The translations under genes and the position numbers were made by a program. DNA of 36,943 bases, taken from contig JASGCE010000008.1 in NCBI GenBank assembly GCA_030054295.1, forward strand, positions 1 to 36,943, written 5' to 3'. Below the pieces are notes generated by a model. The model was not told where the DNA came from. It was given only the letters and a program-made list of their open reading frames with translations, and searched no databases. This document shows positions 1,309-11,423 of this stretch, in pieces. This DNA comes from Minisyncoccota bacterium. Lineage in GTDB: Bacteria; Pseudomonadota; Alphaproteobacteria; Elsterales; Elsteraceae. The stretch's first letter is position 1, and the number at the start of each line of letters is the position of its first letter.

Positions 1309-1869
1309 TCAGGCGAATATCTGAATCTGTTCATTCTTGATTGCGTTGATGCGTGAAAACAGTTTGATTTTCTGGTCGGCCTTTTGTTTGGCATGTTCCG
1401 ACATAAAGGAGAGCAGTTCTTCGAGCTCATCAACGGTGCCGATATTTTTAAAGACCTTGATATTATTCACGAATACCAGAGATTTCTTCTTGCGCGTCAG
1501 AAGTTCGATGATGTTACTAAGCGTGCCCGCGCTTTTAGTGTCCCAGATCATGAAACCGAAGTCTGCAACCTCGGCCATGCGAATGTCCTTGGCAACGAAG
1601 AATGCGCGTGACCCCTGTGAATGATTTGTTTCGACGCATTGAACTGGCCAATGGCCAAGATTATTCCTTGGGCCTTCACCACTACAAAATACGGTTGCCT
1701 TACTTTTATTATGACCAGCAAGATACTTTTGGATAGAGCTATCTACCCCGTCGGCATCGCCCACCACCACCTCAAAATCTTGGGCGATGATCTTGTCAAT
1801 CCGTTCCTTGACCTTCGGGTCAAGAAGCTTGATATTGATCGAGCCAGCAATAAAAACCCGTGTCGTCAT
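1309..1869 (-). CDS. SLOG-like (Rossmann-fold) nucleotide-binding protein, function unknown
   Basis: A 186-residue soluble protein starting MTTRVFIAGS at ATG 1869, with GGAG six bases upstream; this is better than the upstream in-frame start at 1881. Features that suggest the SLOG/DprA-like Rossmann group are FIAGS at the N-terminus, VVVGDADGVDSSIQKYL (residues 34-50), GSRAFFVAKDIRMAEVADFG near the middle, and MIWDTKSAGTLSNIIELL. SLOG domains bind or process nucleotide-derived ligands, and several act as sensors in anti-phage systems. The C-terminal 50 residues are lysine-rich and probably helical. Two bases separate its ATG from the stop of a broken phosphoribosyltransferase frame, so the two were once co-transcribed. 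Biochemical function is unknown. Confidence 0.75.
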   Translation of the reverse strand: MTTRVFIAGSINIKLLDPKVKERIDKIIAQDFEVVVGDADGVDSSIQKYLAGHNKSKATVFCSGEGPRNNLGHWPVQCVETNHSQGSRAFFVAKDIRMAEVADFGFMIWDTKSAGTLSNIIELLTRKKKSLVFVNNIKVFKNIGTVDELEELLSFMSEHAKQKADQKIKLFSRINAIKNEQIQIFA

Positions 1870-1871
1870 AA

Positions 1872-1991
1872 TCATCTCCAAGTCAGAGCAGCTACGAAGA
1901 TCTTCCCTATCTTCTTATAACTTCGCAGTAGTTTGCAAGCGGTTTCCATTGTCGCCCCGGTATGGAACAGATCGTCGATGACTAGAGCATT
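1872..1991 (-). pseudogene. ComF-like phosphoribosyltransferase, 3' remnant
   Basis: Reading the minus strand from 1991, 39 codons run into a TGA at 1872-1874. They contain LVIDDLFHTGATMETACKLL, the PRPP-binding signature of type I phosphoribosyltransferases (hydrophobic-hydrophobic-D-D-x-x-x-T-G-A-T), followed by KKIGKIFVAALTWR. A complete enzyme has another 100-150 residues before this motif. Here an in-frame TAA lies at 1992-1994, and the bases beyond match the end of an intergenic repeat (see 1983-2011). No start codon precedes the motif. The gene was therefore truncated, leaving only its 3' end coupled to the SLOG gene. Family membership rests on one motif. Confidence 0.7.
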
Positions 1992-2011
1992 TTAAAGTTT
2001 CGTTGCACCAA
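1983..2011 (-). repeat. GCTCTAG-terminated repeat end
   Basis: Read on the minus strand, this stretch begins TGGTGCAACGAAACTT and ends GCTCTAG. It matches 25 of 29 bases of the tail of the inverted R1 copy near 11395-11423. It abuts the truncated phosphoribosyltransferase frame exactly, so it marks the breakpoint. Confidence 0.65.
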
Positions 2012-2196: not shown

Positions 2197-2242
2197 ATAA
2201 TACTTGATTCGACAAAACACCAAACTACTCAGGTTGCTTTAC

Positions 2243-3787
2243 CTACTCCCACTCAATGGTTCCCGGGGGTTTAGAGGTAATGTCATAGACGACGCGGTTG
2301 ACTCCCTTGACCTCGTTGATGATTCGGGTGGCGACTCGGCCGAGGAATTCGTGGCTGAAATGGTAAAAATCGGCTGTCATACCATCGACCGAGGTCACGG
2401 CCCGCAGTGCCACCACCTGATCGTAACTGCGCGAATCCCCCATCACTCCGACCGATCGCACCGGCAGTAATACCGCAAAGGCCTGCCAAATTTCGTCGTA
2501 TAATCCAGCCAGACGAATCTCGGAAAGATAGACCTCATCGACCCTTTGCAGCAGGGCCACCTGGTCGCGCGTCACCTCTCCCGGGATGCGAATGGCCAGG
2601 CCGGGGCCGGGGAAGGGATGGCGGCCGACCAGCGATTCGGGCATCCCCAGTTCGCGCCCCAGGGCCCGCACCTCGTCCTTGAACAGGGCGCGGAGTGGCT
2701 CGACCAGTTTCAAATTCATTCTTTCGGGCAGGCCGCCGACATTATGGTGCGACTTGATGGTGACCGATGGGCCACCCAGTACCGATACCGACTCGACGAC
2801 ATCGGGATATAATGTTCCCTGGGCCAGGAATTCGGCATCGGCGAATTTTTTGGCCTCGCGGTCAAAGACATCGATAAAGGCTGCGCCGATGGTTTTGCGT
2901 TTGACCTCAGGGTCGGTGACTCCGGCCAGGCCAGCAAAAAACGCCGCCGAGGCATCGACGCTGACAAGGGGGATATTATAATGGTCGCGGAACAGGGTCA
3001 CGACTTGATCGGCCTCGCCGCGGCGCATCAGGCCGGTATCGACAAAGACGCAGGTCAGTTGCTCGCCGATGGCCTCGTGCAGCAGTACTGCGACGACGGA
3101 TGAATCGACTCCGCCTGACAGGCCGCAGATGACGCGACCCTTGCCGACTTTATTGCGAATATCGGCGATGGCGGTGTTGCGGAAATTGGCCATGGTCCAG
3201 TTTGATTGGCAGCCGACGATAAGCTGGACAAAGTTCTGGATGATCTTTTTGCCGATTTGGGTGTGGACCACTTCGGGATGGAATTGCAGACCGTAGATTT
3301 TGCGGTTCTCGTCGCTGATGGCGGCATGGGGGGCATTGGCGCTGGTGGCGATGGTTGTGAAGCCGTCGGGGAGTTGGCTCACTCGGTCGCCGTGGCTCAT
3401 CCAGACGATGGCGTGGCAATCGGTTGGAATATCGGTAAAGAGTGGCGAGTCGCTGACATGAATTTGCAGGTTGGCGCGGCCGAATTCGCGGTGGCTGCCG
3501 GGCTCGACCTTGCCGCCGAGTTGTGCTGCCAGTACCTGTTGCCCGTAGCAGATTCCAAGAATCGGTACCCCGAGGTCAAAAACTGCCATTGGGATTCGCG
3601 GGGTTGTGGATTCGGTGACCGATGCGGGCCCGCCGGATAAGATGATCCCGCGTGGGGCCAGCTGTTCGATTCTGTGCCAGGGGCTGTTGAAGGGGAGGAT
3701 TTCGCAATAGACTCCAGCCTCTCTCACCCGCCGTGCAATCAGCTGGGTGAATTGGCTGCCGAAATCGAGAATGACGATTGTTTCCAT
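2243..3787 (-). CDS. guaA: GMP synthase (glutamine-hydrolysing)
   Basis: Converts XMP, ATP and glutamine to GMP in the cytoplasm, the last step of de novo guanine nucleotide synthesis. The 514 residues contain an N-terminal class I amidotransferase: [15 protein letters not shown], the GGPASV loop, nucleophile Cys80 in GICYGQQ, and His170/Glu172 in FHPEV. An ATP-pyrophosphatase domain follows, with the PP-loop SGGVDSS at 224-230, and then the dimerisation domain ending [12 protein letters not shown] 3787 gives the standard N-terminus ([12 protein letters not shown]); an upstream TTG at 3814 would add nine atypical residues. No strong ribosome site is visible. It stands alone: the R2 element separates it from PBP1A, and no guaB is nearby. 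Confidence 0.97.
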
Positions 3788-11275: not shown

Positions 11276-11423
11276 ATACCCCCCAAGTCGTTCTAAGATT
11301 TTCGCTGCGCTTTGCTTGCTCAAATCTAAGAACGACTATCCCCCGCTTTCCCTCGCGAAAGGGGGGACATTCTTTGTCTAAACCAAATCTTTGTTGGTGC
11401 AACAAAACCTGAAACTGCTCTAG
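11276..11423 (-). repeat. R1 double-hairpin repeat, copy c (inverted, with GCTCTAG tail)
   Basis: Read on the plus strand it opens ATACCCCCCAAGTCG, holds GTTCTAAGATTTTCG...AAATCTAAGAAC and CCCCCGCTTTCCCTCG, and ends CAACAAAACCTGAAACTGCTCTAG. Its long stem matches copy a (252-372). The tail matches 1983-2011. Beyond it, 11424-11560 contains several GCGGGTAATGACA or inverted versions and a GTTTGCCC/GGGCAAAC hairpin; no gene is visible. Confidence 0.8.

Follow-up and report, generated by a model that had tools for sequence, protein, structure and literature searches.

Several bacterial systems have been described in which a phosphoribosyltransferase (PRTase) is paired with a partner of the DprA/SLOG fold. 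A DprA-PRTase pair has been reported to protect against T7 and lambda, and the antitoxins of shosTA, syrTA and rqlHI are described in the same source as DprA homologues (PMC9122126). According to a review, purine metabolism is disturbed by ShosT, an effect that ShosA opposes via DNA repair (PMC12593503). For RqlHI it has been reported that RqlH has a genotoxic PRTase domain which RqlI keeps in check, and also that this domain, when isolated, is not toxic alone in E. coli (PMC4670107); the latter speaks against simply transferring the RqlH mechanism to the locus described here. On the SLOG side, proteins of the YpsA clade have been connected with nucleotide signals and with derivatives of NAD (PMC6459960, PMC9503650). 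One YpsA branch is paired with a PRTase gene and GxD is the motif named for YpsA, whereas the YpsA of B. subtilis acts in cell division and has gpsB, not a PRTase gene, as its coupled gene (PMC6459960). As the coupling of a YpsA-clade SLOG to a PRTase is already in print (PMC6459960), the novelty of the present analysis is modest; a limited literature search returned no paper that names a compact PRTase-SLOG pair as a toxin-antitoxin system. The analysis connects gene pairs that mostly carry the annotations 'ComF family protein' and 'hypothetical protein', and that occur on plasmids of Klebsiella, Enterobacter and Agrobacterium among others, with systems of the ShosTA/RqlHI kind, with a PRTase as the proposed toxin and a SLOG as the proposed antitoxin.

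The window, i.e. the whole stretch of 36,943 nucleotides that was analysed, carries what is probably a decayed compact toxin-antitoxin pair, presumably one for phage defence or plasmid addiction. The features of the locus are as follows.

1309-1875, minus strand: SLOG gene, open, with a YpsA/DprA/ShosA-like fold (sequence and predicted structure), a probable antitoxin.
1872-1991, minus strand: remnant of a ComF/ShosT-like PRTase, comprising the C-terminal 39 codons with VIDDLFHTGAT, plus TGA.
1981-2231, no strand assigned: MITE-like repeat whose terminal inverted repeats are imperfect (16/25); it replaces the first 157 PRTase codons.
1982-2010, minus strand: repeat end common to 11395-11423 (25 of 29 bases).
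2018-2196, no strand assigned: hairpin core of the repeat, 179 nt (fold prediction).

Translation of minus-strand 1875-1991 gives NALVIDDLFHTGATMETACKLLRSYKKIGKIFVAALTWR, with a TGA stop at 1872-1874 and an in-frame TAA immediately upstream of the N of NALVIDDLFHTGATMETACKLLRSYKKIGKIFVAALTWR. This frame agrees with the first-pass annotation, in which the PRPP-loop motif VIDDLFHTGAT and the remaining C-terminus were read as running to a TGA. The resemblance of the 39-codon frame to a PRTase, on which that annotation depended, is borne out by three comparisons. In a search of the window's own genome the remnant matched residues 157-196 of the intact PRTase of a close relative, L002 (E 2.6e-14), which excludes a chance match; it matches positions 155-193 of the 193 in the PRTase profile (E 1e-15); and 27-29 of its 39 residues are identical to those of each of seven relatives. 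All columns that are invariant in the PRTase alignment (A2) are kept across this stretch, and relative to the relatives the remnant is free of internal stops and indels. In DNA, one ungapped match to L002 spans both the remnant and the SLOG gene (674 bases, 83.2% identity), and the matches to the other six intact loci are ungapped at 77-82% identity. About residues 158-196 of 196 remain, and an intact catalytic PRTase was not found in the window.

The SLOG frame had been described as still open and is so; it is also conserved. Two starts are possible, at 1875, where the ATG at 1873-1875 overlaps the PRTase TGA as ATGA, or at 1869; the 186-aa reading proposed earlier begins two bases past the TGA, and that ATG is present in addition to the one overlapping the stop. 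The ORF lister's start was a TTG at 1881, giving 190 aa. Searches of the Pfam, NCBIfam and PADLOC profiles with the window SLOG gave no credible match, nor did a sequence search of the PDB; an NCBIfam 'lipid-transfer protein' match was far under the cut-off and was discarded. The predicted structure (pLDDT 90.7) had ShosA as its best Foldseek match (8zva, E 1.4e-5), and pairwise comparison with VIA gave Z 13.9 for B. subtilis YpsA (2nx2, 136 aligned, rmsd 3.0), 13.3 for DprA and 13.0 for ShosA (145 aligned, rmsd 3.4), values that amount to a tie. The YpsA-type GxD/E signature of the SLOG Rossmannoid fold is present as G42 and D44, which are invariant in 10 sequences.

The intact pair, a ComF/ShosT-like PRTase of ~195 aa with a SLOG of 173-292 aa directly after it, is found in numerous bacteria and also on plasmids and prophage contigs. 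Scanning one genome per species yielded 12 loci, 7 of them at 78-83% protein identity, and all seven close relatives have an intact PRTase frame of 196-198 aa that overlaps the SLOG frame. Among alphaproteobacterial genomes the SLOG was found in 6/385, including the genome of the window, and the other five loci have a PRTase directly upstream (5/5). A phylum-wide draw gave the SLOG in 7/398 genomes and the PRTase in 6/398, these being the same genomes apart from the window's own. IMG/VR contributed 6 loci via the SLOG and 2 via the PRTase; 97 plasmid records matched the SLOG and 61 the PRTase, with 25 plasmid regions analysed for the pair; a search of phage genome records returned no match.

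Distinct loci were classed with PRTase and SLOG profiles built from the collected sequences. The sample is non-random, the loci having been picked by similarity and several of them since their PRTase looked broken. Identical copies (L034, L059, L064-L069, L100, L101) were counted once, loci at contig edges (L012, L013, L039) were excluded from the orphan count, and copies of the window itself (L001, L015, L017, L032) and a weak unrelated match (L016) were skipped. PRTase sequence is present at 45 distinct loci, intact at 38 and broken at 7. An intact SLOG lies just downstream in 38/38 loci with an intact PRTase, the two profile matches being 5-29 bases apart, and an intact PRTase without an intact SLOG was not seen among the 45. 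The 38 loci match the two-gene PRTase-SLOG operon that had been postulated as the intact ancestor and answer the question of whether SLOG homologues adjoin a PRTase, which they normally do.

The SLOG outlives the PRTase at four of the seven broken loci, namely the window, L011 (PRTase broken by a stop and a frameshift), L038 (N-terminal half replaced) and L104, the E. hormaechei plasmid pM308-NDM1, where an IS3 cuts the PRTase, so that decay has gone the same way as in the window. At the remaining three (L102, L103, L107) the SLOG is lost or broken as well, and L103 carries an IS1. Fisher's exact test on these counts (38, 0, 4, 3) gave p 0.0025 for a sample that is non-random. Such natural experiments, in which one partner is lost and the other kept, suggest which of the two is the toxin: if the PRTase is the toxin and the SLOG its antitoxin, loss of the PRTase with an open SLOG is the expected direction of decay.

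Together with this dependence of one partner on the other, the ShosT and PsyrT matches, the predicted folds and the HTH fusions suggest that the pair is a compact toxin-antitoxin or defence system resembling ShosTA. Intact PRTases match the PADLOC toxin profiles ShosT (1.2e-9 for L008) and PsyrT, the latter in its C-terminal PRTase part (~528-689; E 1.5e-14 for L009 and 1.3e-19 for L052), and the predicted PRTase structure (pLDDT 79.7) aligns by VIA with ComF (Z 13.0) and with ShosT (8zvc, Z 10.2, 157 aligned, rmsd 3.4). In L010 the SLOG is fused to an antidote-type HTH, dnstrm_HI1420 (3.2e-21), and in A. vitis T60/94 a separate HTH gene follows the SLOG of the pair. Several plasmid copies of the SLOG are annotated 'addiction module antidote protein', and plasmid copies of the pair adjoin parA/parB, repA or recombinase genes.

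The locus is like ShosTA in having two genes, a PRTase that resembles ShosT by profile and structure and a partner that resembles ShosA by fold, with the PRTase directly upstream of the DprA/SLOG-fold gene in the relatives and as a remnant in the window. It differs in that the short SLOG aligns only to residues 126-291 of the 308 of ShosA, in that the structural alignments have a sequence identity of ~11-17%, and in that the window PRTase is truncated. To RqlHI/PsyrTA, which join a RecQ-like helicase bearing a C-terminal PRTase with a DprA-like antitoxin, the likeness is confined to that C-terminal part; an N-terminal helicase is absent and the intact PRTases stand alone at ~195 aa. We infer that in intact copies the PRTase would be the toxin and the SLOG the antitoxin, and that the window holds a relic stripped of its toxin with the antitoxin frame open. 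By analogy with ShosT and the PRTase domain of RqlH, the intact PRTase would draw on PRPP and thereby disturb the nucleotide pools or the DNA, and the SLOG, like ShosA and RqlI, would restrain the toxin or repair the damage; a SLOG with a C-terminal HTH would probably repress its own operon. The role, earlier given as a nucleotide-ligand pairing of possible interest in defence or stress signalling, is here sharpened to probable toxin and antitoxin. Counting against this reading are the PADLOC antitoxin profiles, which gave weak matches to the SLOG and none that was significant, the absence of the non-core parts of ShosA, and the occurrence of orphan SLOGs on rhizobial and cyanobacterial plasmids.

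SLOGs lacking any PRTase were found on rhizobial plasmids (L053, L056, L057; ~33-37% identity) and, in shorter form, in cyanobacteria (L054, L058). The three rhizobial orphans share a setting of toprim, DUF2493 and DUF736 genes, and could possibly be antitoxin-type shields or have another role. In the window, an antitoxin would cost nothing once its toxin was lost and might be retained passively, or it may still serve to shield the cell when replicons bearing the pair come in. The dN/dS of the window SLOG to L002 is 0.127 vs 0.045-0.049 between intact copies, which would agree with a constraint that is relaxed yet still present, along a branch that the comparison does not separate, and fits a recent loss of the partner or a weaker constraint equally well.

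The intact pair might instead serve signalling or metabolism, with the PRTase making a nucleotide derivative that the SLOG senses or processes, and the window would then hold a sensor without its signal source. We regard this as unlikely, although it is the strongest of the alternatives. The published ties between the YpsA clade and nucleotide signals or NAD derivatives (PMC6459960, PMC9503650) speak for it, as does the structure comparison, in which the SLOG fold is common also to LOG and ADP-ribose-binding proteins. However, an intact PRTase was never seen without the SLOG at the loci classed and the SLOG outlives a broken PRTase, and this asymmetry, the similarity to ShosT, PsyrT and antidote HTHs, and the plasmid-maintenance neighbourhoods all favour a toxin and its antitoxin.

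In some relatives the pair is joined to a retron. In four of the seven close relatives (L004, L005, L006, L008) the PRTase-SLOG pair follows without a break on the RT and HTH genes of a type VI retron, with 4 bases of overlap between the RT frame and the PRTase start; an example is L008:3265-5573, where the RT matches the PADLOC profile RT_VI at 9.4e-77 and the HTH matches HTH_VI at 6.3e-34. As these four copies are 97-99% identical in DNA, they appear to represent one recently spread element; L007 has kept just the tail of that RT. The retron-pair form, judged from sequence, looks like this single spread element and no general rule for type VI retrons: 43 RT_VI matches were listed, and 0/30 other matching loci examined have the pair within ~1.5-kb flanks. 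The RT of the retron-pair form was searched for in viral contigs and none was found. The 2.8-kb retron-PRTase-SLOG stretch of L006 (JAGXSS010000044.1, labelled as a Peptococcaceae MAG) is 97% identical to betaproteobacterial loci, which means that it was either transferred very recently or sits on a mis-binned contig. Should a type VI retron truly use the pair as its effector, this would hint at what such retrons do.

A broken retron, in which the pair was the type VI effector and the RT was lost along with the front of the PRTase, would accommodate these RT-bearing relatives, but it is highly improbable for the window. There is no type VI RT on the contig of the window (C254) and no RT at its locus, its nearest relatives (L002, L003) and the more distant pairs have no RT upstream, the sole RT_VI-type match of its genome is on another contig (C304), and the pair is missing within ~1.5 kb of the 30 other RT_VI loci; the retron reading was hence rejected for the window. 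The match on C304 is a 610-aa open frame (G000:C304:26718-27521; 6.3e-40 to RT_VI). A broader proposal, which we advance tentatively, is that the PRTase-SLOG pair forms a toxin-antitoxin or defence family of its own that PADLOC does not recognise as a pair, that it became a type VI retron effector in the one recently spread element, and that the orphan SLOGs of the window and the rhizobial plasmids are antitoxin shields against pair-bearing replicons.

Homology to the intact pairs starts at 1985 in the comparison with L002 and at 1981-1991 across the seven relatives, which coincides with the end of the repeat (1981); the upstream coding sequence is thus replaced exactly at the repeat end, as the first-pass annotation had it. 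The same count of 25 of 29 bases was obtained for the GCTCTAG-type end shared with 11395-11423, and the 179-bp palindrome described there corresponds to the predicted hairpin at 2018-2196, which has a z of -6.1, with 0/200 shuffles folding as well. When ≤3 mismatches are allowed, the genome has 4 instances of the 29-base pattern of the repeat end and 0 of a reversed control pattern. Positions 1985-2215 match 42 places in the genome, the query itself included. In the best copy, found on contig C19, the shared stretch is 1981-2231, and this sets the size of the element at ~250 bp. The terminal inverted repeats listed for the window copy were equalled in 4/2000 shuffles, and those of the C19 copy agree at 19/25 positions. 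Wherever members of the repeat family were read, they lie outside genes or cut them. Insertion of the repeat followed by a deletion, or recombination at repeats, may have removed the front of the PRTase; of the earlier claim that repeat insertion or recombination disabled half of the pair, the truncation at a repeat end stands.

Since the assembly is in 355 contigs and the junction abuts a repeat that matches 42 places, the join could also be an artefact, with the intact PRTase located elsewhere. We consider this very unlikely. Exact matches to the 14 other repeat copies examined are ≤53 bases long and none lies at the junction, which argues against a false join, and the assembly has no other piece of this PRTase family: a search of the genome with the intact PRTase returned the remnant and one weak match (E 0.06), so that the first 157 codons are missing from the assembly. 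Continued translation of the remnant, in the role of a leader peptide to which SLOG translation is coupled, is the least probable explanation, for although the ATGA overlap is preserved and the frame is uninterrupted, the TAA precedes it, its first ATG is internal, and its dN/dS to the relatives is ~0.20-0.24 vs 0-0.10 between intact copies (39 codons only).

The PRTase-SLOG relic adjoins the 3' end of guaA (window 2231-2243). The gene guaA is known as an integration site. At L116:378-1394, in a genome of the same family, a DNA cytosine methyltransferase is located just downstream of guaA, so that in this family the guaA flank may serve as a site of integration. Among the same-family genomes, guaA was found in 5/8 and the rpoD C-terminus in 6/8; a clean empty site was not found among them, with 0/5 guaA loci showing rpoD within the flanks examined. 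Directly beside the SLOG gene, the window carries an intact MNT-like nucleotidyltransferase (488-793) and a HepT/NTase_sub_bind partner (790-1224), which by their sequences are a putative second toxin-antitoxin-like pair at the same site.
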